64,000 nucleotides of DNA from Antarctobacter heliothermus (lineage in GTDB: Bacteria; Pseudomonadota; Alphaproteobacteria; Rhodobacterales; Rhodobacteraceae), in NCBI RefSeq assembly GCF_002237555.1, contig NZ_CP022540.1, positions 3,043,001-3,107,000 of the forward strand, given 5' to 3'. Of the stretch, positions 5,850-22,561 are shown piece after piece. A program made the translations under genes and the position numbers. Numbering within the stretch: position 1 is the first letter of the stretch; the number at the start of each line of letters is the position of its first letter. The notes below the pieces were generated by a model. It made no database searches. It had not been told where the DNA came from and saw nothing but the letters and a program-made list of their open reading frames with translations.

Positions 5850-6503
5850 TCAGCGGCTGTTTTCGGTCAAGCGCCGCTTCACATAGGTGGACACCGAGTC
5901 CATCAGCGTGTCCATGTGCGGCTCTTCAAAGAAATGCCCGGACCCTTCGACCTCTTGATGGGTGATCGTGATCCCCTTCTGCTCATGCAGTTTGGACACC
6001 AGCGACCGGGTATCAACCGGCGGGGCCACACGGTCGGCGGTCCCGTTGATGACCAGACCGGACGAGGGGCAGGGCGCGAGGAAGCTGAAGTCATACATGT
6101 TGGCCGGCGGAGAGACCGAGACGAATCCGGTGATCTCGGGCCGACGCATCAGCAGTTGCATCCCGATCCATGCGCCAAATGAGAAACCGGCCACCCAGCA
6201 ATGCTTGGAGTTTTGGTTCATCGACTGCAGGTAATCGAGCGCGGATGCCGCATCGGACAATTCGCCAACGCCTTGGTCGTATTCACCCTGACTGCGTCCA
6301 ACACCACGGAAATTGAACCGCAGCACGGTAAAGCCCATGTTGTAGAACGCATAGTGGAGGTTGTAGACCACCTTGTTGTTCATCGTCCCGCCGAACTGCG
6401 GGTGCGGATGAAGAACAATCGCGATAGGGGCATCGCGGTCTTTTTGCGGATGATAGCGGCCTTCTAGTCGGCCTTCGGGTCCGGGAAATATCACCTCGGG
6501 CAT
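5850..6503 (-). CDS. alpha/beta hydrolase
   Basis: The 217-residue product is a serine hydrolase of the small alpha/beta fold (dienelactone hydrolase/BAAT-like group). It has HPHPQFGGTMNN after the first strands, the nucleophile elbow GFSFG with Ser in the middle, an acid in NGTADRVAPP, and the catalytic His in VEGSGHFFEE. The substrate is unknown. I start it at MPEVIFPGPEG because AAGGAG lies upstream; starts at 6527 and 6578 are possible. Its promoter region is shared with iscR, and an Irr-type palindrome lies between them, so iron may affect it too. Confidence 0.88.
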   Translation of the reverse strand: MPEVIFPGPEGRLEGRYHPQKDRDAPIAIVLHPHPQFGGTMNNKVVYNLHYAFYNMGFTVLRFNFRGVGRSQGEYDQGVGELSDAASALDYLQSMNQNSKHCWVAGFSFGAWIGMQLLMRRPEITGFVSVSPPANMYDFSFLAPCPSSGLVINGTADRVAPPVDTRSLVSKLHEQKGITITHQEVEGSGHFFEEPHMDTLMDSVSTYVKRRLTENSR

Positions 6504-6565
6504 GGGGCGGCGCAGCTCCTTACTCATCAACTTGAAGGGCGGCCCAACTGGACGCCTTGGCATTC

Positions 6566-6603
6566 TTGACCAAAACACGCGGCTACTTTAGAAGAGTTCT
6601 AAA
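6566..6603 (+). promoter_or_regulatory. iscR/suf promoter with overlapping Irr-type (ICE) palindrome
   Basis: A perfect 7-3-7 palindrome, TTTAGAA-GAG-TTCTAAA, occupies 6587-6603. It matches the ICE/Irr-box consensus TTTAGAA-N3-TTCTAAA described in alphaproteobacteria. A candidate -35 TTGACC (6566-6571) and -10 TAGAAG (6589-6594), 17 bases apart, place the palindrome over the -10 region. That would suit repression of the Fe-S operon by Irr when iron or haem is short. The site is about equally distant from iscR and the divergent hydrolase gene. Confidence 0.75.
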
Positions 6604-6690
6604 TCGGCTCCGGCGTGTTCCGGGCTGGGAAGCAGATAGGCAATTGAACGGGTAAGGTCAATTGCCGCCGCGATGAGGGGCGAAACTGCC

Positions 6691-7158
6691 GTGAAGCTGA
6701 GTACCAAAGGTCGCTACGCCATGGTCGCGTTGACAGATATCGCGATGCAGTCTTCTGAGGGGCTGGTCACGCTTGGCGATATTTCCAAACGGCAGGACGT
6801 GTCCTTGCCGTATCTGGAGCAATTATTTGTCAAACTGCGGCGCGCCGGGCTGGTGGAATCGGTACGCGGTCCGGGCGGCGGTTACCGCTTGGCGCGGCTC
6901 CCGGCAGAGATCCGGGTGGTCGAGGTGCTGGCAGCCGTCGATGAGACAGTGGATGCGATGCATGTGGGGGCGGGCGCCTCTGGCGGGCTATCGGGCAGCC
7001 GTGCGCAATCCATGACCAACCGCCTGTGGCAGAGCCTGTCGGCGCATGTCTATGTCTTCCTGCATCAGACACGGCTGTCGGATGTGGTCGAAAACTCGCT
7101 GGCGCCTTGTCCGGCGGTGCCGTCGATCTTTGCCGTGGTGGATGAAGAGGACAAGTAG
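6691..7158 (+). CDS. iscR: Rrf2-family regulator IscR, variant lacking the usual Fe-S cysteines
   Basis: The 155-residue protein opens with the Rrf2 winged helix (KLSTKGRYAMVALTDIA, then SLPYLEQLFVKLRRAGLVESVRGPGGGYRLAR), as in IscR, the regulator of Fe-S cluster assembly genes. The loop that holds three cysteines in E. coli IscR reads DAMHVGAGASGGLSGSRAQS here and has none; the only Cys is residue 140. A single-Cys IscR of this kind is known from Rhodobacter sphaeroides and binds an Fe-S cluster in an unusual way. The GTG start at 6691 has GAGGGG upstream and gives the canonical N-terminus. It leads the suf operon. Confidence 0.9.
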   Translation: MKLSTKGRYAMVALTDIAMQSSEGLVTLGDISKRQDVSLPYLEQLFVKLRRAGLVESVRGPGGGYRLARLPAEIRVVEVLAAVDETVDAMHVGAGASGGLSGSRAQSMTNRLWQSLSAHVYVFLHQTRLSDVVENSLAPCPAVPSIFAVVDEEDK

Positions 7159-7161
7159 GGC

Positions 7162-8265
7162 ATGTCACGCGTCTACCTTGATCATAACGCCACCACGCCG
7201 CTGCGCGCCGAGGCGCGCGCCGCGATGATTGCGGCGATGGATGTGGTAGGCAATCCTTCATCGGTCCACGCCGAAGGGCGGGCTGCCAAAGGCGTGGTCG
7301 AGACGGCGCGCGCGCAGGTCGCGGAACTGGTGGGTTGCCTGACCTCTCAGGTGATCTTTACCGGATCGGCAACAGAGGCGGCGGCGTTGGCGGTGGCGCA
7401 AAAGGATCGGCATGGCGGGGCGTTTGCCGCGCTGCCCACGGAGCACGACTGTCTGAACGTCTGGTCAGAGCTGGATTTGCCCGCGCTGCACCGCGCGGAT
7501 GGCACAGTTGGCAGTCTTGATGTGTTGGACGGGCAGGCGACACTGGTGGCTGTGTCTGCCGCCAACAGCGAGACCGGGATCATGATGCCGGACGGCTGTG
7601 TTGTGGCCAGTGACGGCGACAGGACCGTGGTCTGCGACATCACCCAGTTGGCGGGCAAGATGCCAGTCTTGTATCCCGAGGGACGCAAGCCGGCCTATAT
7701 GATCCTGTCGGCGCATAAGATCGGCGGCCCCAAGGGCGTTGGCGCGTTTATCAACTTCACCCGCGATGACCCACAGGCGATCCTGAAGGGCGGCGGGCAA
7801 GAGATGGGGCGGCGCTCGGGCACCGAAAACGTCATCGGCATCGCCGGGTTCGGCGCGGCGGCAGAGGCGGCGCATAGTGACGTTGCGGCAGGAAAATGGC
7901 ACCGGGTCGAAAAACTTAGAAACATTCTAGAAGAATCTCTTGAGGCTGCCTCTGAGGTGACTATTTCAGTCGGGAAAGACTCGGTCCGTTTGCCGAATAC
8001 CGCGTGCCTTGCGACTTCGGGCTGGAAGGGCGAAACGCAGGTCATGCAGATGGACCTTGCTGGCTTCTCTGTCAGCGCCGGGTCTGCGTGTTCCAGCGGC
8101 AAGGTCAGCCGGAGCCGCGTTCTGGAGGCGATGGGATACGACGACCAGACAGCAGGCGGCGCCATTCGGGTGAGCCTGGGTCTGGACACAACAGAAGACG
8201 ACGTGGCGCGCTTTTGCGACGCCTGGATCAGCAAATACCAGCGGCACCGCGCGCGGGCTGCATGA
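7162..8265 (+). CDS. cysteine desulfurase, NifS/IscS-like
   Basis: This PLP enzyme frees sulfur from L-cysteine as a protein persulfide for Fe-S assembly. The 367-residue product has the N-terminal VYLDHNATTPL, the PLP lysine in ILSAHKIGGPKGVGAF, and the catalytic Cys in SAGSACSSGKVSRS. It begins 3 bases after iscR, so it is co-transcribed. A second desulfurase (SufS) closes the operon. Near its 3' half, at 7916-7930, local AT-richness includes an ICE-like palindrome with one mismatch. Confidence 0.92.
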   Translation: MSRVYLDHNATTPLRAEARAAMIAAMDVVGNPSSVHAEGRAAKGVVETARAQVAELVGCLTSQVIFTGSATEAAALAVAQKDRHGGAFAALPTEHDCLNVWSELDLPALHRADGTVGSLDVLDGQATLVAVSAANSETGIMMPDGCVVASDGDRTVVCDITQLAGKMPVLYPEGRKPAYMILSAHKIGGPKGVGAFINFTRDDPQAILKGGGQEMGRRSGTENVIGIAGFGAAAEAAHSDVAAGKWHRVEKLRNILEESLEAASEVTISVGKDSVRLPNTACLATSGWKGETQVMQMDLAGFSVSAGSACSSGKVSRSRVLEAMGYDDQTAGGAIRVSLGLDTTEDDVARFCDAWISKYQRHRARAA

Positions 8266-8280
8266 AAGAGAGGAACCCCG

Positions 8281-9809
<1,529 letters not shown>

Positions 9810-9813
<4 letters not shown>

Positions 9814-10034
9814 ACTCGGGCTGGGTCAAAGGCGCGGTTCTGGGGCTGGCGGCAGTGTCGCTGGTCGTGACGGGCGTCGGTTGGCAAGAACCGGCGCTGG
9901 CCGCCGGTCCGTTGTATGACCCGACCTTCCTTTACGGGATTGATGTGGATGCCTCCATGCGGGTCCGCGACTGTGAGCCCAGCCTTTTCACCAAGCAACA
10001 CTGCAGCCTTTGGGGCCACTGGGGGCCGATGTAA
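9810..10034 (+). CDS. small exported hypothetical protein in the suf operon
   Basis: I do not recognise this 74-residue product. It starts with GTG overlapping the sufB stop (GTGA), which suggests translational coupling. Residues 1-32 look like a signal peptide: a Lys, a hydrophobic stretch ([17 protein letters not shown]), and an A-L-A-A cleavage-like site. The mature part has two cysteines ([16 protein letters not shown]) that could form a disulfide in the periplasm. A periplasmic role inside an Fe-S operon would be unusual, so it may be a passenger. Confidence 0.6.
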
Positions 10035-10107
10035 CGACAGCGCCGACGGGGCTTTCGATAGTTGTGTCTTACCTGAGAGAAGTCTCACAAGAACTTGGAG
10101 TTAAACG

Positions 10108-10419
10108 ATGATCGTCACCACGACCCCGGCCATCGAAGGCCGCCGCATCACCGCCTACAAGAGCATCGTCGTGGGTGAGGCGATCCTTGGCGCCAACGTG
10201 TTCCGGGACATCTTTGCCGGGATCACCGATATCATCGGCGGTCGCTCTGGTGCCTACGAGGCAAGCCTGCAGGAAGCGCGCGAAACCGCGCTGCGGGAAC
10301 TTGAAGAACGTGCGGCTGCCATTGGCGGCACCGCTGTGGTCGGCGTCGACCTCGACTACGAAGTGATCAACAACATGCTGATGGTTTCGGCCAGCGGCAC
10401 AGCGGTGGTGATCGACTGA
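10108..10419 (+). CDS. YbjQ family (heavy-metal-binding domain) protein
   Basis: The 103-residue protein matches the YbjQ/DUF74 family, a small pentameric fold annotated as a putative heavy-metal-binding domain. It reads [25 protein letters not shown], then [20 protein letters not shown] and GVDLDYEVI. It is probably cytoplasmic. A small inverted repeat (TGAGA/TCTCA, 10074-10087) and a ribosome-binding site (TTGGAG) lie just upstream. Its place between sufB and sufC suggests a link to metal or redox status, but no function is established. Confidence 0.88.
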
Positions 10420-10501
10420 CTCACCGCCCCGACATTGGAACACCGTCGCGCCCGCCATTGGGCAAAGGCGCGCGACAGACCAGACTTGAGAAGGACTAAA
10501 A

Positions 10502-11257
10502 ATGCTGGAAATCAAGAACCTGCACGTCAAACTTGAAGAAGAGGACAAGCAGATCCTCAAAGGCGTCAACCTGACCGTCGAAGCGGGCAAGGTGCATGCG
10601 ATTATGGGGCCGAATGGCTCTGGCAAGTCGACCCTATCCTATGTCCTGTCGGGCAAGGACGGCTATGAGGTCACTGATGGCGCGGCCACGCTGGAAGGCG
10701 AAGACCTGCTGGATATGGACGTCGAAGAGCGCGCCGCCGCCGGTCTGTTTCTGGCGTTCCAGTACCCGGTTGAGATCCCCGGCGTCGGCAACATGACCTT
10801 TCTGCGCACGGCTGTGAACGCACAGCGCAAGGCGCGCGGCGAGGAAGAAATGTCCTCTGCCGAGTTCCTCAAGGTGATCCGCGAAAAAGCCAAGTCGCTG
10901 AAGATCGACGCCGAGATGCTCAAGCGTCCGGTTAATGTTGGCTTCTCCGGCGGTGAGAAAAAGCGCAACGAGATCCTGCAAATGGCGATGCTGGAACCCC
11001 GGATGTGCATTCTGGATGAGACCGACTCGGGTCTTGACGTGGACGCGATGAAACTGGTGGCGGACGGCGTGAACGCGCTGCGCGACGCCGGGCGCGGCTT
11101 TCTTGTCATCACGCACTATCAGCGCCTGCTGGACCACATCAAACCGGACGTGGTTCACATCATGGCCGACGGTCGCATCATCAAGACCGGCGGGCCGGAG
11201 CTGGCGCTTGAGGTCGAAAAGAACGGCTATGCCGACATCCTTGCGGAGGTGGCGTAA
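10502..11257 (+). CDS. sufC: Fe-S cluster assembly ATPase SufC
   Basis: SufC is the ABC-type ATPase of the SufBCD scaffold. The 251-residue product has Walker A GPNGSGKST near residue 39, the ABC signature FSGGEKKRNEI near 149, and Walker B CILDETDSGLD with the catalytic Glu. An AAGGACT ribosome-binding site precedes the ATG. The stop TAA shares a base with the sufD start, so translation is coupled. Confidence 0.98.
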   Translation: MLEIKNLHVKLEEEDKQILKGVNLTVEAGKVHAIMGPNGSGKSTLSYVLSGKDGYEVTDGAATLEGEDLLDMDVEERAAAGLFLAFQYPVEIPGVGNMTFLRTAVNAQRKARGEEEMSSAEFLKVIREKAKSLKIDAEMLKRPVNVGFSGGEKKRNEILQMAMLEPRMCILDETDSGLDVDAMKLVADGVNALRDAGRGFLVITHYQRLLDHIKPDVVHIMADGRIIKTGGPELALEVEKNGYADILAEVA

Positions 11258-12537
11258 TGGCATTGCCACAGGCAAAACTGGACGCAACCGAGGCGCGGTT
11301 GTCCGCGCTGGCGCTGCCAGAAGGCGGATGGAGCGATCCGGCGCGTGCGGACGCGCTGTCGCGTCTGCGGGCCATGGGCCTGCCCACCGCCCGCGACGAA
11401 TACTGGAAGTACACCCGGCCCGAAACGCTGGTGACGGCTGACGCGCCCACGGCCGCTGTTCTGGATCAGGATGATGAGACGCCGCTGTTTGCTGCGCGCG
11501 ACCGGCTGAAGATCGTCTTTGTGGATGGCGTGTTTTCCGCCTCCGCCTCTGACGATCTGAGCCTTGAGGGCGTGTCTGTCGACCGGCTGGCCGAGGCAAA
11601 AGATATTCATTGGGCCAAAGACTTGTACGGCGTTCTTGAGGCGCAAGGGCAGACCCCGGTGGCCCGCCCGCTGGCAGCGCTGAACACCGCCTTCGCCAGC
11701 GATGGCGTGCTGATCCACGTCACCGGCAAGGTGTCCAAACCGATCAACCTGATCTATCGCCATGAGGATGAAACCTCGGATGCGATCCTGCATCATGTGA
11801 TCAAGCTGGACGCCGGGGCCGAGGCGACGATCCTTGAAAACGGACCCGCCGCCGCCCGGTTCAACCAGTGTATCGAGGTCGATGTGGCCGACAATGCCAC
11901 GCTGCACCACATCCGTGCGCAGGGCCGTGACCATGAGCGCCGCGCTGCCACGCACATCTTTGCCCGTCTGGGGCAAGAGAGCACTTTCAAGAGCTTTACC
12001 CTGACCGTGAACGGGATGCTGACCCGCAACGAGGTCGTGATCGACATCACCGGCGACAATGCGGTGGCGCATGTGGCCGGGGCCTGTATGGGAGACGGCG
12101 CATTCCACCATGACGACACCATCTTTGTCACCCATGACGCGGTGAACTGCGAAAGCCGTCAGGTGTTCAAGAAGGTGCTGCGCAACGGCGCGACGGGGGT
12201 GTTTCAGGGCAAGATCCTTGTCAAAGCGGGCGCGCAGAAGACTGACGGTTATCAAATTAGCCAGTCGCTGCTGCTGGACGGAGACAGCCAGTTCCTTGCC
12301 AAGCCGGAACTGGAAATCTACGCCGATGACGTCGCCTGTTCGCACGGCTCTACCTCCGGGGCGATCGACGAAGAGGGGCTGTTCTACCTGCGCGCCCGTG
12401 GCGTGCCGCGCGGCACTGCCGAGGATCTGCTGACCATCGCCTTTATCGCCGAAGCGGTGCAGGAGATCGAGGACGAGAGCCTGCAAGAGGAACTGGTCGA
12501 GCGTGTGGCGGCCTGGCTGGCGCGCCGGCGCAGCTGA
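11257..12537 (+). CDS. sufD: Fe-S cluster assembly protein SufD
   Basis: SufD pairs with SufB to form the scaffold on which clusters are built and is needed for iron acquisition. The 426-residue product has the SufD opening (REYWKYTRPETL near residue 50) and the beta-helix repeats. The family C-terminal block includes DDVACSHGSTSGAIDEEGLF, then LRARGVPRGTAEDLL. The start overlaps the sufC stop by one base. The downstream YIP1 gene begins 4 bases after its stop. Confidence 0.97.
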   Translation: MALPQAKLDATEARLSALALPEGGWSDPARADALSRLRAMGLPTARDEYWKYTRPETLVTADAPTAAVLDQDDETPLFAARDRLKIVFVDGVFSASASDDLSLEGVSVDRLAEAKDIHWAKDLYGVLEAQGQTPVARPLAALNTAFASDGVLIHVTGKVSKPINLIYRHEDETSDAILHHVIKLDAGAEATILENGPAAARFNQCIEVDVADNATLHHIRAQGRDHERRAATHIFARLGQESTFKSFTLTVNGMLTRNEVVIDITGDNAVAHVAGACMGDGAFHHDDTIFVTHDAVNCESRQVFKKVLRNGATGVFQGKILVKAGAQKTDGYQISQSLLLDGDSQFLAKPELEIYADDVACSHGSTSGAIDEEGLFYLRARGVPRGTAEDLLTIAFIAEAVQEIEDESLQEELVERVAAWLARRRS

Positions 12538-12540
12538 CCG

Positions 12541-13050
12541 GTGCCTGTCACCCGGGATATCGCCGCCACCTACCGCAGGCCGCGGCAGACCCTGCGCGCG
12601 CTGTTGTTGCGCGGGGTCAGTGAACCGCGCGCGCTGGCCTGCCTGATGGGGGCCTGTGCGGTGATGTTTGTGGCGCAATGGCCCCGGCTGGCGCGGGAGG
12701 CCCATCTGAAGGGCACTGATTTGGAGCCCGCGCTTGGCGGGGCGCTGCTGGCGACGTTGATCTTTCTGCCGCTGGTCTTTTACGTCGTGGCCGGGCTTAG
12801 CCAGTTGGTGTCTACGGCCGTCATGCGGCCGATTGGCGGGTACGATACCCGTTTTGCACTGTTCTGGGCGCTGCTGGCGGCCTCGCCGCTGGCATTGCTC
12901 TACGGGCTGGTTGGCGGGTTTATCGGGGCAGGCGGCGCATTGACGCTGGTTGGTGCCGCGTGGCTTGGCGTGCTGCTCTGGTTCTGGACCACGGGCCTGC
13001 GTGAGGCACGCAAACTGTCAGGGCCGGACGGCAAAGAGGGCGCGGCGTGA
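12541..13050 (+). CDS. YIP1 family membrane protein (first of pair)
   Basis: This is a 169-residue integral membrane protein with about four hydrophobic segments (for example ALACLMGACAVMFVAQW and ALLATLIFLPLVFYVVAGL) and a charged tail. Its pattern fits the YIP1 family. It starts with GTG three bases after the sufD stop and overlaps the next gene by 4 bases. No catalytic motif is visible. Membrane proteins of this type between sufD and sufS recur in roseobacters, as I recall; their role is unknown. Confidence 0.75.
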   Translation: MPVTRDIAATYRRPRQTLRALLLRGVSEPRALACLMGACAVMFVAQWPRLAREAHLKGTDLEPALGGALLATLIFLPLVFYVVAGLSQLVSTAVMRPIGGYDTRFALFWALLAASPLALLYGLVGGFIGAGGALTLVGAAWLGVLLWFWTTGLREARKLSGPDGKEGAA

Positions 13051-13631
13051 CCCCGGAGGCTTTCCTGAAGCTGGCGTTGCAAAGCGTGACAAACCCGCGT
13101 GAGGTCGCCGCCTTGTTGCTGTCGATCCGTCCAGGGCGTGAGGCGCTTTGGACGGCATTCGCGCTGGTCGTGGTGCTGAACGCGCTGATCTTTTCCGCCT
13201 CATTGCTGATGGATCCGACGGGCGTTCCGACCCTTTTGTCCAGCCCGGTGATGCTGCTGGTGTTGCAAGGTGCTGCATTGGCGGGCAGCATTCTGGCGCT
13301 GACGTGGGCCGGGCGGCTGTTCGGAGGCAAGGCGCGGATCGAGGAAATCGCCCTGCTGATGATCTGGATGCAGGCGCTGCGCATTTTGGTGCAGGGCGCG
13401 CTGCTGTTGATCATCCCGGTGTCTCTGGTGTTGGCGGGACTGGGAACAATGGCGGCCACGGCGCTTGGCGTCTGGATCGCCGTGAACTTTCTGGACGAGG
13501 CGCATGAACTGGGCGGCCCCTTGCGTGCCTTGGCCGTCTTGGTATTGGGCATGTTTGCAATGGCTTTTGCCGTCTCACTGCTATTGACCCTCGCAGGGGT
13601 CACACCCGAAGGAATCACAGGCTATGTATGA
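13047..13631 (+). CDS. YIP1 family membrane protein (second of pair)
   Basis: The 194-residue integral membrane protein has five hydrophobic stretches, among them ALWTAFALVVVLNALIF and ILVQGALLLIIPVSLVLAGL. It begins at a GTG inside the stop of the previous gene (GTGA) and ends 8 bases inside sufS, so the three are translationally coupled. Similar size and topology suggest it is a diverged sister of the preceding gene. No function is known; a heteromeric membrane complex is a possibility only. Confidence 0.75.
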   Translation: MTPEAFLKLALQSVTNPREVAALLLSIRPGREALWTAFALVVVLNALIFSASLLMDPTGVPTLLSSPVMLLVLQGAALAGSILALTWAGRLFGGKARIEEIALLMIWMQALRILVQGALLLIIPVSLVLAGLGTMAATALGVWIAVNFLDEAHELGGPLRALAVLVLGMFAMAFAVSLLLTLAGVTPEGITGYV

Positions 13632-14844
13632 CGTCGACACAGTTCGCGCCGATTTTCCGATCCTCTCGCGTGAGGTGAATGGCAAGCCGCTGGTCTATCT
13701 GGACAACGGGGCCTCGGCGCAGAAACCGCAGGTTGTGATCGACGCGGTGACGCGCGGCTATGCCGAGGAATACGCCAACGTCCACCGGGGCCTGCACTAT
13801 CTGTCGAACCTTGCGACCGAGAAATATGAGGGCGTCCGAGAGATCATCGCCCGTTTTCTTGGGGCCAAAGACGCCGAAGAGATCGTCTATACCACCGGCA
13901 CCACCATGGGCATCAACCTTGTGGCTTATGGCTGGGCGATGCCCAATCTTGAGCCGGGCGATGAGATTGTGCTGTCGGTGATGGAGCATCACGCCAATAT
14001 CGTGCCGTGGCATTTCCTGCGCGAACGGCAGGGCGTGGTCATCAAATGGGTCGATGTGGATTCGACCGGCTATCTTGATCCGCAAAAGGTGGTCGACGCC
14101 ATCGGTCCCCGGACCAAGCTGGTCGCGGTCACCCAACTGTCCAACGTGCTGGGCACGGTGGTGGATGTGAAAACCATCTGCGACGGGGCCCGCGCCAAGG
14201 GCGTGCCGGTGCTGGTGGATGGGTCGCAGGCGACGGTCCACATGCCGGTGAATGTCGAGGATATCGGCTGCGATTTCTACGCGATCACCGGGCATAAACT
14301 CTACGGTCCGTCGGCGTCCGGCGCGATCTGGATGCGCCGCGCCCGCATGGATGAGATGCGCCCGTTCATGGGCGGCGGCGACATGATCCGTGAGGTCCAC
14401 AAGGACGCAATCACTTGGAACGATCCCCCGATGAAGTTCGAGGCCGGAACCCCCGGCATCGTTCAACAGATCGGTCTGGGCGTCGCGCTGGAGTACATGA
14501 TGGGTCTGGGGATGGACAACATCGCCGCCCATGAGAAAGCCTTGCGTGACTATGCGCGGACCCGTCTGGACGGTCTGAACTGGCTGTCGGTGCAGGGCAC
14601 GACGCCAAACAAGGCCGCGATTTTTTCCTTTACGATGCAGGGGGCGGGCCATGCGCATGACATCTCGACCATCCTTGACAAAAAGGGCGTCGCGGTGCGG
14701 GCAGGGCATCACTGTGCCGGGCCGCTGATGGATTTCCTTGGCGTCACCGCGACCTGCCGGGCCAGCTTTGGCCTCTATAACACCACGGCAGAGGTGGACG
14801 CGCTGGTTGATGCGTTGGAACTGGCGCACGATCTTTTCGGCTAA
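13624..14844 (+). CDS. sufS: cysteine desulfurase SufS
   Basis: SufS is the group II cysteine desulfurase that feeds sulfur to SufBCD. The 406-residue product has the opening VRADFPILSREVNGKPLVYLDN, the PLP lysine in AITGHKLYGPSASG, and the active Cys in the SufS-type RAGHHCAGPLMDF near residue 364. It overlaps the upstream YIP1 gene. The companions often found next, SufE/SufU, the DUF59 protein SufT and the A-type carrier SufA, do not follow here. Confidence 0.96.
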   Translation: MYDVDTVRADFPILSREVNGKPLVYLDNGASAQKPQVVIDAVTRGYAEEYANVHRGLHYLSNLATEKYEGVREIIARFLGAKDAEEIVYTTGTTMGINLVAYGWAMPNLEPGDEIVLSVMEHHANIVPWHFLRERQGVVIKWVDVDSTGYLDPQKVVDAIGPRTKLVAVTQLSNVLGTVVDVKTICDGARAKGVPVLVDGSQATVHMPVNVEDIGCDFYAITGHKLYGPSASGAIWMRRARMDEMRPFMGGGDMIREVHKDAITWNDPPMKFEAGTPGIVQQIGLGVALEYMMGLGMDNIAAHEKALRDYARTRLDGLNWLSVQGTTPNKAAIFSFTMQGAGHAHDISTILDKKGVAVRAGHHCAGPLMDFLGVTATCRASFGLYNTTAEVDALVDALELAHDLFG

Positions 14845-14870
14845 TCTGCCGGTTTTCTAGACAGAGCACG

Positions 14871-14900
14871 CCCCTGTTCAGGTCATTTTATGAACGGGGG
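14871..14900 (+). terminator. stem-loop between sufS and the methyltransferase gene
   Basis: CCCCTGTTCA (14871-14880) pairs with TGAACGGGGG (14891-14900) through ten pairs, including one G-U, around a ten-base loop. No clear T-run follows, so it may be a weak terminator, an attenuator or an mRNA-stability element. It separates the suf operon from the next gene. Confidence 0.45.
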
Positions 14901-14959
14901 TTCAATTTCGCGTGGGGTCTTGGCAGGCTGTCGGCAACGCAACTGCCACGGAGAACCGC

Positions 14960-15970
14960 ATGTCGCTTTTGACCGACGCCGACGAAATTTCGCAAATCGC
15001 ATTTGGATTCATGGGATCGAAGGCGCTGTTCGCCGCGCTCGAACTGGGAATCTTTACCCATCTGGCACAGGGGGCGATGACGGCGACAGAGTTGGCGCAG
15101 GCGTCAAAGATACATGAGGACCGGGTGACAACCCTGCTGACGGCGCTGGCCGGTATGGGGCTGGTTGCGGTTGATGAGGACGGATTTTCCAACGCCCCCG
15201 CAGCACAGGCTTTTCTGGTGCAGGGCGCCAAGTACGATTTTTCCGACTATCTGCGCCTGCAGGTCGGGCGACAGATGTATCCGCTGATGGATCAACTGGA
15301 CGACGCGCTGAGCGGCAATATGGCCGAGGATGCGACCGCGTCCTATGCCGATTGGTTTTCCGACCCCGAGGAGGCGCGGCTTTATTCCGAAAGCCAGCAT
15401 TCCGGGTCGTTGGGTCCGGCGCGGCAACTGGTCAAGGCGCTGGATCTGTCCGGCAAACACAAGATGCTGGATCTGGGCGGCGGCACGGCGGCCTTTGACA
15501 TCACGTTGTGCAAGGCGAACCCGGATCTGACCGCGACGATTCTGGAGTTTCCCAATGTCGCGGCGCTGGGGCGCAAGTATGTGGACAAGGCGGGCCTGAC
15601 TGATCGGATCACCTATCTCGAGGGCAACGCGCTGGAGACACCATGGCCGCAGGGGCAGGATGTGGTGATGATGTCCTATCTGCTGTCGGGTGTGCCGGGC
15701 GACACCCATGCGCGGCTGATCCGGCAGGCGTTCGAGGTGCTCAATCCCGGCGGGATCGTGCTGATCCATGACTTTGTGGTACACGAGGACCGGAGCGGAC
15801 CGTCCTTGGCCGCCCTCTGGCAGTTGCAACACACAGCCTTTACGCCAGAGGCCCGCTCACTGGATGCCGGGTGGTTGGACGGGGCATTGGCGGGGGCCGG
15901 ATTTGCCGGAATAACCGTTGCCCCACTGATCCCGGAAATGACCATGCTGGCGCAGGCGCACAAGCCCTGA
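14960..15970 (+). CDS. dsyB: S-adenosylmethionine-dependent methyltransferase, probable DsyB (MTHB S-methyltransferase for DMSP synthesis)
   Basis: The 336-residue protein has the layout of O-methyltransferase family 2: an N-terminal dimerisation/winged-helix part (SQIAFGFMGSKALFAALELG, then DRVTTLLTALAGMGLV) and a C-terminal Rossmann domain. Motif I is MLDLGGGTAAFDI, near residues 169-181. A conserved-looking YADWFSDPEEA and QHSGSLGPA lie just before it. This pattern and length fit DsyB, which methylates 4-methylthio-2-hydroxybutyrate, the committed step of bacterial DMSP synthesis. From memory, dsyB lies beside isc/suf genes in several Rhodobacteraceae, as here. The ATG at 14960 follows GGAGAA. 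Another small-molecule methyltransferase is the alternative. Confidence 0.6.
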   Translation: MSLLTDADEISQIAFGFMGSKALFAALELGIFTHLAQGAMTATELAQASKIHEDRVTTLLTALAGMGLVAVDEDGFSNAPAAQAFLVQGAKYDFSDYLRLQVGRQMYPLMDQLDDALSGNMAEDATASYADWFSDPEEARLYSESQHSGSLGPARQLVKALDLSGKHKMLDLGGGTAAFDITLCKANPDLTATILEFPNVAALGRKYVDKAGLTDRITYLEGNALETPWPQGQDVVMMSYLLSGVPGDTHARLIRQAFEVLNPGGIVLIHDFVVHEDRSGPSLAALWQLQHTAFTPEARSLDAGWLDGALAGAGFAGITVAPLIPEMTMLAQAHKP

Positions 15971-16143
15971 CAGGCCGCACCCGCTGCGCTGGCGCGGGCG
16001 CGGGAAAAGGGTATGCCGGGAAACCGCGCGGTGCGGCACCGTGCGGATGCGGACCGCCGCGCAGAAATGTCAGCTTCTGTTTTTCAGGCTGTCAGTAAGG
16101 CGTTGCAGAGGTCGGCCCCTTGGGTCTATACAGCCGCCAGAAC

Positions 16144-16220
16144 GCACCCATAGCTCAGCTGGATAGAGCGCTGCCCTCCGAAGGCAGAGGTCAGAGGTTC
16201 GAATCCTCTTGGGTGCGCCA
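16144..16220 (+). tRNA. tRNA-Arg (anticodon CCG)
   Basis: A complete cloverleaf can be drawn: acceptor GCACCCA/TGGGTGC, D arm GCTC...GAGC, anticodon stem CTGCC/GGCAG around the loop CTCCGAA, T arm AGAGG-TTCGAAT-CCTCT, discriminator G and encoded CCA. The anticodon CCG reads the Arg codon CGG, common in this GC-rich genome. A broken integrase gene follows directly, so this tRNA was probably an attachment site. Confidence 0.97.
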
Positions 16221-16247
16221 AATTTCAGGCTAAGATCCTGTTCTTCC

Positions 16248-16968
16248 TCACATGAACGTAATTTCACCACCGCAGTTCGCGCTCCGGTTTCCAGAAGCCA
16301 TTGCCCGTTTGTTCGCGGATGGGATGTCGTGGGCGACCTCGTGAAGTGACTCGTGCCCCGTCCAGACGCCGATCCGGTGTGGGGGCCAGCCGCCCACTGC
16401 CAGGATCACAGTGCGTGCCTTGCGTAGCCCGAGCGCCGTCTTTCCGGTCAGCCCGGCATCCCGTGCCGCGTAGCTGATCAGCATCGACAGCGCCTTGATT
16501 GACCGCGCTTTGCCCGACCTCTAATGAACAGGAACTCCAATCCCGCGGCGTCGAGGAGTGCCTCGGGTCCGCCCGCAGGAACGGGTGGATAGGCTCTGCC
16601 ACCGGAACGCAGGCGTTGCCGCCGGTCTTCTCCTGCTCAAAGCTCAGGATGCCGTCGCGCGCACATTGCCAACCGATCCACGCGGCATCGATACAACGCG
16701 CCGCCGTCCAGAAAATCACCGCGAACGCTTGCCGCTCTGCCGGCCCGAGCGGCCAGCGGGCGCGGAAGGCGACCACGTCCATCGCCGTCCACGGTTCATG
16801 TGGTTTCGAGTTGCTGCGCCGGATCTCGGCGTCTCGGGCAATATTGTCGGTGCGCCAGTGTTCCGCCTTCGCGTAGGACATGAGCGCTCGCCAGACCGTG
16901 CGTTCGGCCCATGCGGCGGTGACCCCGTCCGCGCACCTGGCATGATGGATGCAGTTCGTTCTGGTCAT
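16248..16968 (-). pseudogene. tyrosine recombinase (phage-type integrase), frameshifted remnant
   Basis: Reading leftward, one frame shows an integrase core-binding region and the first part of a catalytic domain: ALMSYAKAEHWRTDN, then EPWTAMDVVAFRARWPLG, FWTAARCIDAAWIGW and LSFEQEKTGGNACVPV. The rest continues in another frame (RSGKARSIKALSM, GLTGKTALGLRKARTV, IGVWTGHESL), which carries the H-x-L-R-like and W-T-G-H signatures. The frame change is near 16,520, next to an in-frame TAG. The N-terminus is also degraded. It lies 28 bases past tRNA-Arg, as expected for an element that integrated there and decayed. Confidence 0.8.
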
Positions 16969-17438
16969 CCGGTCATCTTCTGTTGCAGGGCGTGGTCGTC
17001 CCATTTGGTCTGCAACGGCGGCCATCATGCCGGTGTAGGACCGGCGCGGGCATTCGGGGCCGGGCGGCATCCTGTGAACCGCGTTTCAGCGTTTCCAGGT
17101 CTCGCTGTCCCGGTCCGGCTCTGGCAGGCGATTGGTCTGCATCAAGTCCGGCAGTCCGCGCCGGTCCCGGTGGCGCAGTTCCGCTGCCCCGGCTGCGGCT
17201 GGACGCACATGCTCAACATTAACCCGTCACAGAGGCCCAGGTGGGCGTTCAGCGGCGACGTCGCCCTCGATCAAAATCAGCCGGACCTATACCGCGTCCA
17301 ATCGCGCCGATGAGAGTACGGCCTTAGTGACGGTTACACCGCGCTTGGCATACCTGTCACAGAGCCCAAGGGATAAATGTGTCTGGGGGAAAGGCAAGTC
17401 CGGGCTTCACGCGATTTACGCAACAAAGCCCCGCGCGG
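16969..17438. other. intergenic stretch without a convincing gene
   Basis: Between the integrase remnant and ectR I see only short frames with no family resemblance and arginine- or proline-rich composition. It probably holds the rest of the decayed element. I found no second copy of the tRNA 3' end here that would mark the other attachment site. Confidence 0.5.
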
Positions 17439-17921
17439 TCAGTGATCCAGCACGTTTTTGATGTCACCGGTATCCAACACCGGCGAGGCGTCCAGATCAT
17501 CGGCATCCAGCATCGCGGCGACGCGTTCCAGACTGGACACCAGCATCGCCTGTTCCCAATCCTCCATCGCCCCGAACTTGCGGACAAAGCGCTGTTGCAG
17601 CGGGTCGGGGGCCTCTGCCAGCGTTTGTCGCCCAGCGGCGGTGATATGGATATTAATCTGGCGGCGGTCGGTCTCTGATTTTTCGCGCACCGCCAGATTC
17701 TGCCGCACCAGTTTGTCCACCAAGGACGTCACCGTCGCCTGCGACACACGCATCTGGACAGAGATCTCTTTCGCCGTGGCATGGCCGCGTTCACCGATGA
17801 TCTGCAGCACGCGAAACTGCACGGCGGTGACGCCGGCAACCAGCTTCAACTCACGGCTGTACAATTCGGTCGCGCGCAGAATGCGGCGGATGGCGATCAG
17901 GCAGGTGTCAACGCGGTCCAT
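17439..17921 (-). CDS. ectR: MarR-family regulator of ectoine biosynthesis EctR
   Basis: The 160-residue protein has the MarR winged-helix: VTAVQFRVLQIIGERGHATAKEIS, recognition helix QATVTSLVDKLVRQNL, and wing REKSETDRRQINIHIT. It is divergent from ectA, the usual place for EctR, which represses ectABC at low salinity. Two short palindromes that could be its operator lie in the shared intergenic region. The effector is unknown. A general MarR function is less likely given the position. Confidence 0.88.
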   Translation of the reverse strand: MDRVDTCLIAIRRILRATELYSRELKLVAGVTAVQFRVLQIIGERGHATAKEISVQMRVSQATVTSLVDKLVRQNLAVREKSETDRRQINIHITAAGRQTLAEAPDPLQQRFVRKFGAMEDWEQAMLVSSLERVAAMLDADDLDASPVLDTGDIKNVLDH

Positions 17922-17956
17922 CGGCTGTCCAGTGCAAGGGATTACCTATCTTACAA

Positions 17957-17998
17957 GGCGTTTGAACGCCCTACAAAGAGAATAATGATTTGTAAATC
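17957..17998. promoter_or_regulatory. candidate EctR operators in the ectR-ectA intergenic region
   Basis: Two perfect palindromes lie within 42 bases: GGCGTT-TG-AACGCC at 17957-17970 and GATTT-GT-AAATC at 17987-17998. They begin 36 bases upstream of the ectR start and end 134 bases before ectA. MarR dimers bind sites of this form, so either may serve autoregulation and control of the ectoine operon. No binding data are available. Confidence 0.45.
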
Positions 17999-18132
17999 GA
18001 AGTGTAAACATGGCTCATATGGGTGTCTGAGGGCCAGAAATGGCTAGATTTGCACAAAAAATGCTTTGCACGTTGAAATACATGCTGCGTTACGCTAAGT
18101 ACCACCCAAAGCAATCAAGGAGACTTAGTCCG

Positions 18133-18663
18133 ATGCAACACCCGCGTGATATCACCCGTTCGTCCCTGCCCACTCTTCGCTGCCCCACAGCAGAGGATGG
18201 CGCGGCGATCTGGGAGCTGGTGCGCGCGTGCAAGCCGCTCGACGAGAATTCGATGTATTGCAACCTGCTGCAGTGCGATCATTTCGCCGACACCTGTGTC
18301 GTGGCCGAACGTGACGGTGAGGTTGTCGGCTGGGTGTCTGCGTACATCCCGCCCAACGACACGGACACGCTGTTCGTGTGGCAGGTTGCCGTGTCTGAAA
18401 AGGCGCGCGGTCTGGGGCTGGGTGGCCTGATGCTGCAATCCATCCTCGACCGTGACGTCTGTGAGGACGTGACACGGCTGCAGACCACCATCACCGGCGA
18501 CAACGAGGCGTCCTGGGCGCTGTTCCGCAAGTTTGGCCGCAGGCAGGGCCGGGGGCTGGATGTCCAGCCGTACTACACCCAGTCGCTGCACTTTCAGAAA
18601 CGGCACAAGACCGAGAATCTAGTCACCATCAAACTGGACGAAGAGCTGGCGCAGGCGGCCTGA
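18133..18663 (+). CDS. ectA: diaminobutyrate acetyltransferase EctA
   Basis: EctA acetylates L-2,4-diaminobutyrate with acetyl-CoA to N-gamma-acetyldiaminobutyrate, the second step of ectoine synthesis. The 176-residue GNAT-fold product has LRCPTAEDGAAIWELVRAC, the substrate-pocket segment LDENSMYCNLLQCDHF and the acetyl-CoA loop VSEKARGLGLGGLML. The ATG at 18133 follows AAGGAG; longer frames extend into the promoter region. It leads ectA-ectB-ectC-ask. Confidence 0.97.
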   Translation: MQHPRDITRSSLPTLRCPTAEDGAAIWELVRACKPLDENSMYCNLLQCDHFADTCVVAERDGEVVGWVSAYIPPNDTDTLFVWQVAVSEKARGLGLGGLMLQSILDRDVCEDVTRLQTTITGDNEASWALFRKFGRRQGRGLDVQPYYTQSLHFQKRHKTENLVTIKLDEELAQAA

Positions 18664-18709
18664 GCCCCGCGCCCCACGTCCTTCCCTGATCAGAATGAGA
18701 GAGACACAC

Positions 18710-19996
18710 ATGTCATCGCAAATCTTTAAACCGACCATTTTCAAACGACGCGAATCTGAGGCCCGCAGCTATTGCCGCGGGTTCGATACCGTGTTCACCA
18801 CCGCGCTGGGGTCGGAAATGACCGATGCGGCGGGGCGCACCTATATCGACTTTCTGGCGGGCTGTTCCTCGCTCAACTACGGTCACAATGACCCGGACAT
18901 GAAGGCCGCCCTGATGGCGCATCTGTCCGAAAACGGCATTGCGCACGGGCTGGACATGCACACCGGCGTCAAGGCGCGGTTCCTTGAGACGTTTGAGGAC
19001 GTGATCCTCAAACCGCGCGGCATGAACCACAAGGTCATGTTCACCGGCCCGACCGGCACCAACGCGGTCGAGGCGGCGATCAAGCTGGCGCGCAAGGTTA
19101 CCGGGCGTCACAACATCATCGCCTTCACCAACGGCTTTCACGGCATGACCATGGGCGCGCTGGCCTGCACGGGCAACGCGGGCAAACGCGCCGGCGCCGG
19201 CGCTCCGCTGGGCGGCACAACCCACATGCCGTTCGAGGGTGCCTTTGGCGAGAACGTCGACAGCCTTGAGATCATCGAACAGATGTTGGGCAACCCGTCT
19301 TCGGGTGTCGACGCTCCGGCGGCCTTCATCATCGAACCGGTTCAGGGCGAGGGCGGTCTGAACGCCGCGACGCCCGAGTTCATGCAGGGCATCGCACGCC
19401 TTGCCAAGGAACATGGCGCACTGCTGATTGTCGACGACATTCAGGCAGGCTGTGGCCGCACCGGCCCGTTCTTTTCTTTTGAGGAGATGGGGATTGAGGC
19501 GGACCTGATCCCGATGGCGAAATCCTTTAGCGGGATGGGCCTGCCGTTTGCGGCGCTGCTGATCAAGCCGGAACTGGACATCTGGACGCCTGCTGAACAC
19601 AACGGCACCTTCCGTGGCAACAACCACGCCTTTGTCACCGCCCGCGTGGCGATCGAAAAATTCTGGAGCGATGACGCCCTTCAAAAGGATGTCGCGCGCC
19701 GGGCCACGATGATCGAACACACGCTGGAAACCATCGCAACGATGGTGCCGGGGGCCAAGCTGAAAGGCCGTGGCATGATGCGCGGCGTCGATGTCGGCTC
19801 TGGCGATCTGGCGGGCGCGATCTGCGCCGAGGCGTTCGAGAACGGTCTGATCATCGAAACCTCGGGGGCCGGGGATGAGGTGGTCAAGGTTCTGGCACCG
19901 CTGACGACACCGGATGAAGTTCTGAAAGACGGGCTGAACATCCTGACAGAGGCGGCGCGTTCCGTCCTGACAACCCAGAAAATGGCAGCGGAGTAA
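18710..19996 (+). CDS. ectB: diaminobutyrate--2-oxoglutarate transaminase EctB
   Basis: EctB makes L-2,4-diaminobutyrate from aspartate semialdehyde with glutamate as amino donor. The 428-residue class III aminotransferase has the ectoine-type opening [15 protein letters not shown], the cofactor loop [17 protein letters not shown] and the PLP-binding Asp in [14 protein letters not shown]. The PLP lysine is in [12 protein letters not shown]. The ATG at 18710 has AGAGAG upstream. A start 15 bases earlier is possible but less likely. Confidence 0.97.
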
Positions 19997-20001
19997 CCGA
20001 T

Positions 20002-20403
20002 ATGATTGTCAGAGACTTCGAACAGATCAGCAAGAACCAGCCCGATCGCGTTGTATCCGACGCGCAATGGACAAGTGTGCGGATGCTGCTGGCCGATGAC
20101 GGGATGGGCTTTTCGTTTCACATCACGTTCCTTGAGGCGGGCTCGGAGCATGTTTTCGAGTACAAGAACCACTTTGAAAGCGTGTATTGCATGCAGGGCA
20201 AGGGCTCGATCACCGATCTGGCCACCGGCGAGGTGCACCACATCAAGCCGGGCGTCATGTACGCACTGGACAAGCACGACCGCCACCGCCTGAAGGCGGA
20301 CGAAGAGTTGGTCATGGCTTGCTGTTTCAACCCGCCCGTGACGGGCAAAGAGGTCCACCGCGAAGACGGCTCTTATGCAGCGCCCGAGGCGGTGGAGGCC
20401 TGA
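20002..20403 (+). CDS. ectC: ectoine synthase EctC
   Basis: EctC closes the ring of N-acetyldiaminobutyrate to ectoine. The 133-residue cupin has the family opening MIVRDFEQI, the [20 protein letters not shown] strand pair and the metal-site segment [19 protein letters not shown]. It ends with the catalytic-end block [13 protein letters not shown]. It starts five bases after ectB. No ectD hydroxylase is present nearby, so the cluster makes ectoine rather than hydroxyectoine unless ectD lies elsewhere. Confidence 0.98.
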
Positions 20404-20407
20404 TTTC

Positions 20408-21826
20408 ATGACTCATACAGTTGAGAAAATCGGCGGGACAAGCATGTCCCGCCTCGCTGAATTGCGTGACACGCTATTCCTGACCGACGGCAAGGCGGCT
20501 TATGGCCGTGTGTTTGTCGTGTCTGCCTTTGGTGGCATCACCGACTTGCTGCTAGAGCATAAAAAGACCGGAGAGGCGGGCGTCTACGCGCGCTTTGCCA
20601 ATGCCGAGGACGATCACGGCTGGCACGAGGCGCTCAGCCGCACCAGCGAGGCAATGATTGCCGCGCATGAGGACGTGCTGGACCATCCCGGCGACATCGA
20701 ACAGGCCACCGCCTTTGTGCAGGAACGTATCGAGGGCGCGCGCAATTGCCTGATCGACCTGCAACGCCTGTGTTCCTACGGGCATTTCCGGCTGAACGCG
20801 CACCTGCTGCACATCCGCGAGTTGCTGTCCGGTCTGGGCGAGGCACACTCCGCGCTTGTTGCTACACTGCTTTTGCAACGCTCTGGCGTGAATGCACGGT
20901 TGGTGGATCTGACCGGTTGGCGTGATGAGGACGACGTGACCTTGCAGGAACGGCTGGACCGGGGCATGTCGGGAATTGATACCGCCACCGAAATGCCCAT
21001 CGTGACCGGCTACGCTCAGTGCCAAGAAGGTCTGATGCGCGAGTTTGATCGCGGCTATTCAGAAGTGACGTTTTCGCGGCTTGCCGCCCGGACGGGCGCG
21101 CATGAGGCAATCATCCACAAGGAATTTCACCTGTCCTCCGCCGATCCGCGCATTGTGGGCGGCGACAAGGTCAAAAAGCTGGGCCGCACCAACTATGACG
21201 TGGCCGATCAGATGGCCAATCTGGGGATGGAGGCGATCCACCCCTCGGCGGCCAAGACGCTGCGTCAGGCGGGTGTGCCGCTGCGTGTCACCAATGCCTT
21301 TGATCCCGGCGATCCCGGCACGCTGATCGACGACCAGCCGGCCGAGACGCCGAGTGTCGAGATCGTCACTGGGCTGGACGTGATTGCGCTGGAGGTGTTC
21401 GAACAGGATATGGTGGGCGTCAAGGGCTACGATGCCTCCATCCTCGACGCGCTGACCCGCCACAAGGTGCGGATCGTGTCCAAGGTGTCCAATGCGAACA
21501 CCGTCACCCACTATGTCGATGCCTCGCTGAAAGCACTGCGCCGGGTCGAGGCGGATTTGTCGGAGAAATACCCGCAGGCCGAACTCAGCACCCGCAAGCT
21601 GGCGCTGGTGGCGGTCGTGGGCCGCGATCTCAGCGGGCTGTCGACCTTGCAACGCGGGCTACAGGCCTTTGATCATGCGGGGATCTATTCCGTTGGCGCC
21701 AGCCAGGGACCGCGCAATGTGGACACTCAGTTCATCCTCGAACGGGCGGATATGGAAAAGGCGATCAAGAGCCTGCATGACGCCTACTTCGACGACGAAA
21801 ACAAAAAGGTCGCGCTGGTCGCCTGA
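20408..21826 (+). CDS. ask_ect: ectoine-cluster aspartate kinase Ask_Ect
   Basis: This specialised aspartate kinase supplies aspartyl phosphate to the ectoine pathway and in other bacteria avoids the feedback control of LysC. The 472-residue product has the kinase start TVEKIGGTSMSRL and SRLAARTGAHEAIIHKEFHLSSADPRIV in the catalytic part. C-terminal ACT-like regions include VRIVSKVSNANTVTHYV and LVAVVGRDLSGLSTL. It begins 4 bases after ectC. The later aspartate-semialdehyde dehydrogenase step must come from a chromosomal asd outside the window. Confidence 0.95.
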   Translation: MTHTVEKIGGTSMSRLAELRDTLFLTDGKAAYGRVFVVSAFGGITDLLLEHKKTGEAGVYARFANAEDDHGWHEALSRTSEAMIAAHEDVLDHPGDIEQATAFVQERIEGARNCLIDLQRLCSYGHFRLNAHLLHIRELLSGLGEAHSALVATLLLQRSGVNARLVDLTGWRDEDDVTLQERLDRGMSGIDTATEMPIVTGYAQCQEGLMREFDRGYSEVTFSRLAARTGAHEAIIHKEFHLSSADPRIVGGDKVKKLGRTNYDVADQMANLGMEAIHPSAAKTLRQAGVPLRVTNAFDPGDPGTLIDDQPAETPSVEIVTGLDVIALEVFEQDMVGVKGYDASILDALTRHKVRIVSKVSNANTVTHYVDASLKALRRVEADLSEKYPQAELSTRKLALVAVVGRDLSGLSTLQRGLQAFDHAGIYSVGASQGPRNVDTQFILERADMEKAIKSLHDAYFDDENKKVALVA

Positions 21827-21877
21827 GGCATCCGCGACCGTCAAGAACAGACCGCGCAACGCGGCGTGAGCAGACTT

Positions 21878-21907
21878 GGGCCGACCCTGATGGGGGCGGC
21901 CCTTTTT
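21878..21907 (+). terminator. Rho-independent terminator of the ectoine operon
   Basis: GGGCCG (21878-21883) pairs with CGGCCC (21897-21902) and is followed by five Ts. It lies 51 bases after the ask_ect stop. Confidence 0.8.
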
Positions 21908-21976
21908 CGTGGTTGGGTGTCGCTGCTCCGTGACGATTCTGCCCGGCGGGGTCCACCTGCTGCCAGACACCCAAGG

Positions 21977-22396
21977 TCATATCGCCTCGGGGATGGGAAA
22001 CAGCAGGTCGTAGACCCAGTTGAACACAAAGGCATAGATCAGAAAGAACACGACAAAGGCGATGTCCATGATCAGTGCCTGCCACAGGCTGATGCCAAGA
22101 TAGATGGCAAACAGCGGCAAGGTCGCCACCAGCAGCCCGAGTTCGAACAGGATGGCGTGCAGGACACGTTCGGCCCCCGTTTTTTCGACGCGGCCCTTGA
22201 GCCGCTTCATCGTTCGATCGAACATAAGGTTATAAAAATAGTTCCACAGCGTCGCAAGAACAGACCCGATGATGACGATGACGCCCATGTCCTTGGCGTG
22301 CACGTCGAACCCCAAGGCGCCAAGCGGCACAATCAAAAGAATGCCGATGATCTCAAAGCTGATTGCGTGTCGAATTCGGTCGCGTGTTGTGCGCAT
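21977..22396 (-). CDS. PACE-family efflux transporter (AceI-like)
   Basis: The 139-residue protein has two repeated helix pairs: DRIRHAISFEIIGILLIVPLG with WNYFYNLMFDRTMKR, then RVLHAILFELGLLVATLPLFA with VFNWVYDLLFP. This is the two-copy bacterial transmembrane pair pattern of the PACE exporters, which expel chlorhexidine and other biocides and short polyamines. It acts in the inner membrane. I start it at MRTTRDR because GGGGAGG lies just upstream; an ATG 12 bases earlier has none. Confidence 0.9.
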   Translation of the reverse strand: MRTTRDRIRHAISFEIIGILLIVPLGALGFDVHAKDMGVIVIIGSVLATLWNYFYNLMFDRTMKRLKGRVEKTGAERVLHAILFELGLLVATLPLFAIYLGISLWQALIMDIAFVVFFLIYAFVFNWVYDLLFPIPEAI

Positions 22397-22561
22397 GGTC
22401 CTCCCCATCTGCTGGCCGGGTCGTCCCGGAAATTGGCCCCGATGGGGGAGGTCGTCCTTAGCCTGTGAACATATGAGTTCAAGCGCAAGTTTCCATAGGG
22501 CTCAACGAAGTGGATCGACGCCCACACCGGAAAACCAAACGAAATGCCGGTATGGCCCAGA

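Follow-up and report, generated by a model that had tools for sequence, protein, structure and literature searches.

A well-supported member of the DsyB family between the suf genes and tRNA-Arg(CCG) of Antarctobacter heliothermus

Introduction

Does the methyltransferase gene that lies directly behind the suf genes of Antarctobacter heliothermus encode the enzyme DsyB of bacterial DMSP synthesis, and how does it come to lie there? The gene belongs to a stretch of 64,000 nucleotides (contig NZ_CP022540.1, positions 3,043,001 to 3,107,000 of the forward strand), hereafter the window, whose initial annotation took it for a probable dsyB. Among cultured bacteria that produce DMSP, DsyB is reported to be the known enzyme met with most often (PMC10989797), and a copy here is thus expected and unsurprising. 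A. heliothermus itself is reported to have been isolated with a marine diatom (PMC6691348).

The best explanation of the locus as a whole is that the gene is dsyB and its product an S-methyltransferase of 4-methylthio-2-hydroxybutyrate (MTHB) feeding DMSP synthesis, a reading to which we assign a probability of about 0.93. Homology, architecture, active-site residues, clade and genomic slot are shown directly, while the reaction is predicted from the solved enzyme. The gene is a well-supported member of a known family in a slot common to many related bacteria; the only parts that may be new are this suf-dsyB-tRNA slot and a promoter repeat in relatives.

Results

Open reading frame, domains and active site

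The gene opens with an ATG on the forward strand and encodes 336 residues (Table 1). Although the mechanical open reading frame begins farther 5', at GTG 14912, ATG 14960 was taken as the start because the alignment with the protein of Nisaea denitrificans begins there. In a search against all solved structures, the product gave an ungapped match over residues 1-336 to N. denitrificans DsyB (7wdq/7wdw; E 8.7e-144), which excludes chance by far and confirms that the frame is real; the next distinct solved methyltransferase was RedM (E 2.7e-30). The identity, counted against the contig of N. denitrificans DSM 18348 that encodes the solved and assayed enzyme, is 219/336 (65%) at 100% coverage, above the thresholds by which DsyB is counted in metagenomes (identity of 40% or more to a ratified sequence, with coverage of 70% or more; PMC11306096). 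The proposed two-domain family-2 architecture was recovered by Pfam, with an N-terminal O-methyltransferase dimerisation domain (PF08100, residues 6-87, 67.9 bits) and a C-terminal SAM-dependent Methyltransf_2 domain (PF00891, residues 133-315, 65.3 bits), both over cut-off. The cofactor motif that had been placed at residues 169-181 reads MLDLGGGTAAFDI. At E <= 1e-60 the genome holds one DsyB copy. A second O-methyltransferase domain of the same genome (G000:C1:3531655-3532005) lies within an open frame of 2593 residues, probably a large multi-domain protein.

Table 1. Features around dsyB, in positions of the window
Feature	Position	Strand	Basis or remark
Remainder of suf cluster	6673..13631	+	
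Rrf2/IscR-type regulator	6673-7158	+	
Cysteine desulfurase	7162-8265	+	
sufB	8281-9813	+	
YbjQ	10108-10419	+	
sufC	10502-11257	+	
sufD	11257-12537	+	
Small protein without Pfam match	12541-13050	+	
Yip1-domain protein	13047-13631	+	
sufS, cysteine desulfurase	13624..14844	+	NCBIfam TIGR01979, 529 bits, cut-off 475
Weak terminator-like stem, 5 pairs, TTTTCTAGAC tail	14837..14852	+	over sufS stop codon
Hairpin, 11 pairs, 10-nt loop	14870..14901	+	-18.3 kcal/mol, z -4.2, 0/200 shuffles as stable
GGAG, ribosome-binding-site-like	14950..14953	+	by eye
dsyB, predicted MTHB S-methyltransferase, 336 aa	14960..15970	+	homology, Pfam, active-site residues, tree
tRNA-Arg(CCG)	16144..16220	+	behind dsyB
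MarR-type regulator before ectoine genes	17439..17921	-	sub-cut-off matches only, best Saro_0803 family 46.3 bits
Ectoine cluster	18040..21826	+	NCBIfam/Pfam-type domain searches
ectA	18040-18663	+	
ectB	18695-19996	+	
ectC	20002-20403	+	
Aspartate-kinase-like gene	20375-21826	+	

Six residues of DsyB are reported to bind MTHB (Y97, Q101, Y129, Y142, Q146 and H291), their substitution severely lowering activity, and six to contact SAM (S150, G173, D196, D223, A224 and S239; PMC10989797). The two segments singled out in the initial annotation as fitting DsyB prove to hold such positions, YADWFSDPEEA containing Y129 and QHSGSLGPA containing Q146 and S150. The window has all six MTHB residues, and none of them varies over the 102 aligned rows (the window and 101 relatives, namely the 80 best DsyB loci and 21 from family genomes), while nine outgroups, comprising L128-L133 (31-35% identity) and the methyltransferases RedM, SibL and MmcR, keep zero, one or two of them and carry W, F, L, I or D at position 97. 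In a wider set, relatives down to 46% identity retain the six positions, barring F142 in three rows (L123, L125 and L126) and a fragment (L117) that is cut at an internal stop and has nothing at position 291; a relative at 42% identity (L127) has F142 and S291. The fragment is a DsyB homologue of genome G449 with one in-frame TAA about three quarters along, either a broken gene or a sequence error.

At the SAM site, positions 150, 173 and 239 are invariant over the 102 rows, 224 is A in 94, E196 occurs in 37 and N223 in 78. The window, with E196 and N223, lies within the range of the family and is identical to the solved enzyme at four of the six positions. The two differences from the solved enzyme, common as they are in the family, weigh against the reading; we know of no characterised enzyme that carries both residues.

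Placement in the DsyB clade

A tree was built from 49 hand-picked rows (the window, 39 DsyB-like proteins and the nine outgroups) with 200 bootstrap trees; among its clade rows one, N. denitrificans, is known as an assayed enzyme, and the set is without L. aggregata DsyB and algal DSYB. The window falls inside a 40-row DsyB clade (support 100/98) that excludes all nine outgroups, as the proposed identity predicted, and the outgroups stand beyond one branch in 100% of the bootstrap trees, their branches being long (program warning) and the deep order among them unsure. The sister of the window is A. heliothermus DSM 11445 (100/99), followed by Mameliella (100/94). In 387 genomes of the class, DsyB-like matches run from 741 to 272 bits (43-100% identity), and the next match drops to 183 bits (35%); this gap is a sign of a discrete DsyB family. 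DsyB was found at E <= 1e-60 in 22 of 296 family genomes and in five of six searched genomes of the genus, the own genome counted in both; the genus is the grouping of the tool and, judging from identity values, seems to take in Mameliella.

These data bear on whether the gene could be a general O- or C-methyltransferase that shares the fold of DsyB, of the antibiotic or bacteriochlorophyll type, and resembles DsyB in looks only. Source annotations of relatives read methyltransferase, acetylserotonin O-methyltransferase or demethylspheroidene O-methyltransferase, and the top NCBIfam model for the frame is BchU (TIGR02716). However, its 88.3 bits are far below its cut-off of 276.1, no NCBIfam model reaches its own cut-off for this frame, and the tree places RedM, SibL and MmcR, each with one or two of the MTHB residues, beyond the DsyB clade. 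On the score gap, the MTHB residues and the tree a general methyltransferase was rejected, and we hold this reading to be very improbable.

The suf-dsyB-tRNA slot

As first described, suf genes lie directly upstream: SufB, SufC, SufD and SufS pass curated cut-offs of NCBIfam, the IscR-like protein scores above the cut-off of the Rrf2 superfamily and below that of the IscR model, and the cysteine desulfurase next to it has sub-cut-off NCBIfam matches only. From the stop codon of sufS to the dsyB ATG there are 115 bp.

The proposal that dsyB adjoins isc or suf genes in several Rhodobacteraceae was borne out for suf by a survey of the best 80 of 138 confirmed DsyB loci, in which SufS (counted at > 60% identity within the DNA examined per locus) was nearby in 48. 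In 47 of these 48, sufS lies upstream on the same strand as dsyB, within 415 bp of it in 43 and at 895-1678 bp in L009, L010, L033 and L060. The other 32 loci hold no SufS in the DNA examined, which covers only about 4 kb upstream in L061, L070 and L078. A tRNA-Arg(CCG) follows within 363 bp behind dsyB in 42 of the 48 suf-linked loci and about 1.6 kb beyond it in L034, L041 and L049; it is far off on the other strand in L030, absent in L026 and on the other side of an inverted dsyB in L075. The tRNA finder, run on 15 of the 32 unlinked loci, placed tRNA-Arg(CCG) right behind dsyB in four (L031, L056, L057 and L065). Among the matches listed from the open-access literature, no statement of dsyB beside isc or suf was found; in one matching paper 'iron-sulfur' stands in the references only.

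Two of these loci are unusual. In the metagenome-assembled genome of Maritimibacter sp. NAT7 (L075), dsyB lies between sufS and tRNA-Arg(CCG) in inverted orientation, a sign that it was re-inserted or turned round within the same slot. A record labelled Enemella evansiae TN21-6 (L045) carries a whole Rhodobacteraceae-type suf-dsyB-tRNA region with SufB 94% identical to that of the window; this 'actinobacterial' record is possibly a mislabelled genome and not a true actinobacterial dsyB.

The slot also occurs empty. In a genome of the same genus without dsyB (G678, L157), tRNA-Arg(CCG) begins about 90 bp behind sufS and is followed by about 10.7 kb of other DNA and then a MarR-type gene and ectAB. 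SufS was present in all 120 family genomes searched, and loci were taken for the best 30; among 26 dsyB-less genomes drawn from the 29 that remain without the own one, 18 have tRNA-Arg(CCG) within 1.5 kb behind sufS and eight do not. Since the sufS-tRNA-Arg pair is widespread and includes dsyB-less genomes, dsyB occupies a defined gap, whose history may be a single gain with losses or repeated gain. Over 47 loci, the distances of DsyB and SufS show a moderate correlation (Mantel r 0.43, not reached in any of 999 permutations), a hint that the two were partly inherited together.

The gap between sufS and dsyB

The gap in the window holds the hairpin at 14870-14901, after whose stem a long T-run is absent; by eye, a similar hairpin with G-U/G-C swaps is present in A. 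heliothermus DSM 11445. It may be a suf terminator, a control element or neither. The terminator-like rule admits loops of 3-8 only, and the hairpin is not among the three sites that it finds in 14800-16300; as shuffled sequence gives a mean of 1.4, the stem over the sufS stop codon may be chance. A consensus scan of 14800-16300 returned no sigma-70-like promoter. A SAM or SAH riboswitch before dsyB was considered and rejected: Rfam at E up to 0.1 gave three matches in 6000-22500, the first being the tRNA, the second lying antisense to it and the third a Guanidine-II riboswitch below threshold. The last, at 22416-22463 on the reverse strand, scores 29.5 bits, just below the gathering score of 32.

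An inverted repeat before dsyB in relatives

In relatives, the gap holds an inverted repeat, NCGAC-N6-9-GTCGN, whose position relative to the start of dsyB is -69 to -96. It lies within -105 to -45 in 31 of the 48 suf-linked loci and in one of the 32 unlinked ones (best 80 of 138), the background being 446 of 21,699 windows of 70 bp taken from other parts of these loci and 30 of 479 segments of 260 bp in SufS loci; a looser test over 250 bp (score at least 12/14) found 17 of 48 linked loci, three of 32 unlinked loci and four of 810 shuffled stretches. Since the pattern was derived from these same sequences, the counts do not amount to independent tests. In two unlinked Chachezhania loci (L037 and L050) the repeat stands at -123 and -136. 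Thalassovita gelatinovora and Nioella nitratireducens are among the relatives that carry it. The 17 suf-linked loci that lack it in that place include A. heliothermus and Mameliella, and it is absent before dsyB in the window. Where the repeat occurs, its spacing is kept with respect to dsyB and not to sufS, and by eye a -10-like hexamer follows about 30 bp before the start codon.

It is in this light that a suf-dependent expression of dsyB has to be weighed, in which the gene would be a passenger of the suf operon, expressed with suf under Rrf2/IscR-type control by iron or oxidative stress and without a promoter of its own. The 115 bp between the two genes on one strand, the same close and co-oriented pairing in 43 of the best 80 of 138 loci, the gap without a consensus promoter in the scan and the correlated DsyB and SufS distances all favour such a passenger. 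Yet the repeat of relatives stays fixed relative to the dsyB start even where sufS and dsyB are 390-1678 bp apart (L007, L009, L010, L021, L028, L029 and L060, with L033 as an exception that has no repeat), dsyB stands without suf in the DNA examined of 32 of the best 80 loci (three of them covering only about 4 kb upstream), and a strong hairpin interrupts the gap in the window. A suf passenger is possible, if doubtful; dsyB would probably form, wholly or partly, its own transcription unit behind sufS.

The same repeat before an MttB-type gene

A search of 12 genomes for the exact motif GCGACA-N5-7-TGTCGC gave 55 sites, compared with 17 for its reversed control. The dsyB sites account for six of the 55, and 39 of the other 49 lie inside ORFs (GC3-based gene picker), and the raw enrichment is thus a weak argument; in the own genome there are seven sites against three for the control, five of the seven inside ORFs. 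The search led to sites before an MttB-family gene in one other genome and in the own one. The family was surveyed in 13 genomes, the own one counted, with loci for 30 of 31 listed places split by score. Among copies at 719-751 bits (L241-L252), the repeat (N5-9) stands at -77 to -93 from the start in 8 of 12, or in 7 of 11 if L243, one of the copies that prompted the test, is excluded. It is found in one of 13 copies at 782-796 bits (L228-L240), that of the own genome (L232), and one of five other copies (L253-L257) has a repeat farther off. Two copies of implausible frame and without a usable start (L239 and L248) were counted as lacking a site, with none in 300 bp upstream. NCGAC-N5-9-GTCGN is seen upstream of dsyB in relatives within L007-L081 and at MttB-type genes within L241-L249, and the flanks, too, are common to the two kinds of site (CTGAAAaCGACA...). 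The lineage of the window has the repeat before two own MttB-type genes and instead the hairpin at dsyB.

In G690, the MttB-type gene is followed by an H-NOX haem-NO-binding gene and a GGDEF diguanylate cyclase gene (Pfam); by eye, the own copy at G000:C1:4663681-4665195 and that of G691 share this layout. A further intergenic site precedes a dimethylglycine-dehydrogenase-like gene (DAO and GCV_T domains).

As to the regulator, MetR was rejected, its consensus ATGAA-N5-TTCAT not fitting, and the accessible passages of the same source say of the SahR motif no more than that it is a 20-bp palindrome (PMC4239095). The RegA/PrrA motif is reported as a GCG-type inverted repeat of variable spacer and is called degenerate (PMC4263372; consensus in PMC5435760). 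Compared by eye only, the second half-site GTCGC fits this degenerate consensus and the first partly, and RegA/PrrA is a candidate from such loose likeness. It may be proposed, tentatively and as something rather unlikely, that in Rhodobacteraceae relatives dsyB has its own conserved operator (~GAAARCGACA-N5-6-TGTCGYTTTC) just upstream of the promoter, shared at the same distance with the MttB-type gene, so that DMSP synthesis would be part of a small regulon responsive to redox/NO or to methyl groups, with a RegA/PrrA-type response regulator perhaps in control. No paper with dsyB stood among the matches listed for a dsyB promoter in the open-access literature, which says little.

The osmolyte neighbourhood

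Beyond the tRNA, about 1.2 kb without a recognised gene lead to a MarR-type regulator, ectABC and an aspartate-kinase-like gene; the ectoine cluster lies 2 kb further on. The regulator, which has no curated match, is a putative EctR. Right behind the tRNA, an open frame without Pfam match on the reverse strand (16264-17070) appears by eye to be recombinase debris, and the tRNA looks like an insertion hot spot.

Discussion

By analogy with the solved enzyme, the product of dsyB would methylate the sulfur of MTHB, which would arise from methionine through transamination and reduction. A dimeric DsyB would bind SAM in its C-terminal Rossmann domain and close against the N-terminal dimerisation domain, placing the MTHB sulfur beside the SAM methyl group; proximity and desolvation would then bring about methyl transfer to give DMSHB and SAH. 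Decarboxylation of DMSHB would yield DMSP, an osmolyte and anti-stress compound.

As DsyB catalyses the key step of the route to DMSP that is commonest among those known in bacteria, the gene predicts DMSP production by A. heliothermus, as would be expected from other dsyB-bearing bacteria. A true MTHB methyltransferase might nonetheless yield little or no DMSP if the gene were silent or a decarboxylase missing, leaving DMSHB as the end product. The decarboxylase gene of such bacteria is reported as not known, a gap that makes the completeness of the pathway unreadable from the genome; R. pomeroyi is reported to lack decarboxylase activity, and in the cyanobacterium Z. navalis, whose enzyme is DsyG, DMSHB is said to outweigh DMSP (PMC11306096). 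Against such an outcome, dsyB presence and transcription are said to indicate whether DMSP can be made and at what level (PMC10989797), and the gene is intact and present in five of six searched genomes of the genus, the own one counted. We consider such an outcome improbable. In the accessible passages of the open-access literature no DMSP measurement for Antarctobacter was found; no paper there joins 'Antarctobacter' and 'dsyB', and of the three with 'Antarctobacter' and 'DMSP', the passages of one make no mention of dsyB.

The suf-dsyB-tRNA-Arg(CCG) slot, together with its empty versions, offers a natural system for the gain and loss of DMSP synthesis, and the operator in relatives, if real, would help to trace what induces DMSP synthesis in bacteria.

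RedM, SibL and MmcR, class I methyltransferases, share the two-domain fold and the SAM motif but score 91-109 bits against 482. Other methyltransferases named for DMSP pathways are eukaryotic DSYB, TpMMT, MmtN, BurB, DsyG/DsyGD and DSYE; of these, DSYB, TpMMT, DsyG and DSYE are reported to be MTHB methyltransferases (PMC10989797, PMC11306096), eukaryotic DSYB being about 33% identical to DsyB (PMC10989797). The DsyB of N. denitrificans is like that of the window in full length, domain layout, the six MTHB residues and four of six SAM residues, and unlike it in the D196 and D223 replaced here by E and N, in its 65% identity and in its surroundings, where 10 kb on either side hold no match to the suf genes of the window. 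Closest are the proteins of Mameliella (L004-L006; 80-82% identity) and of A. heliothermus DSM 11445 (L003; 96%), both with the same suf-dsyB-tRNA-Arg(CCG) order; they differ farther downstream, where L004 has ectR-ectA about 9 kb past dsyB, no ect genes lie within 10 kb in L005 and L006, and the contig edge is reached before any ect genes in DSM 11445.
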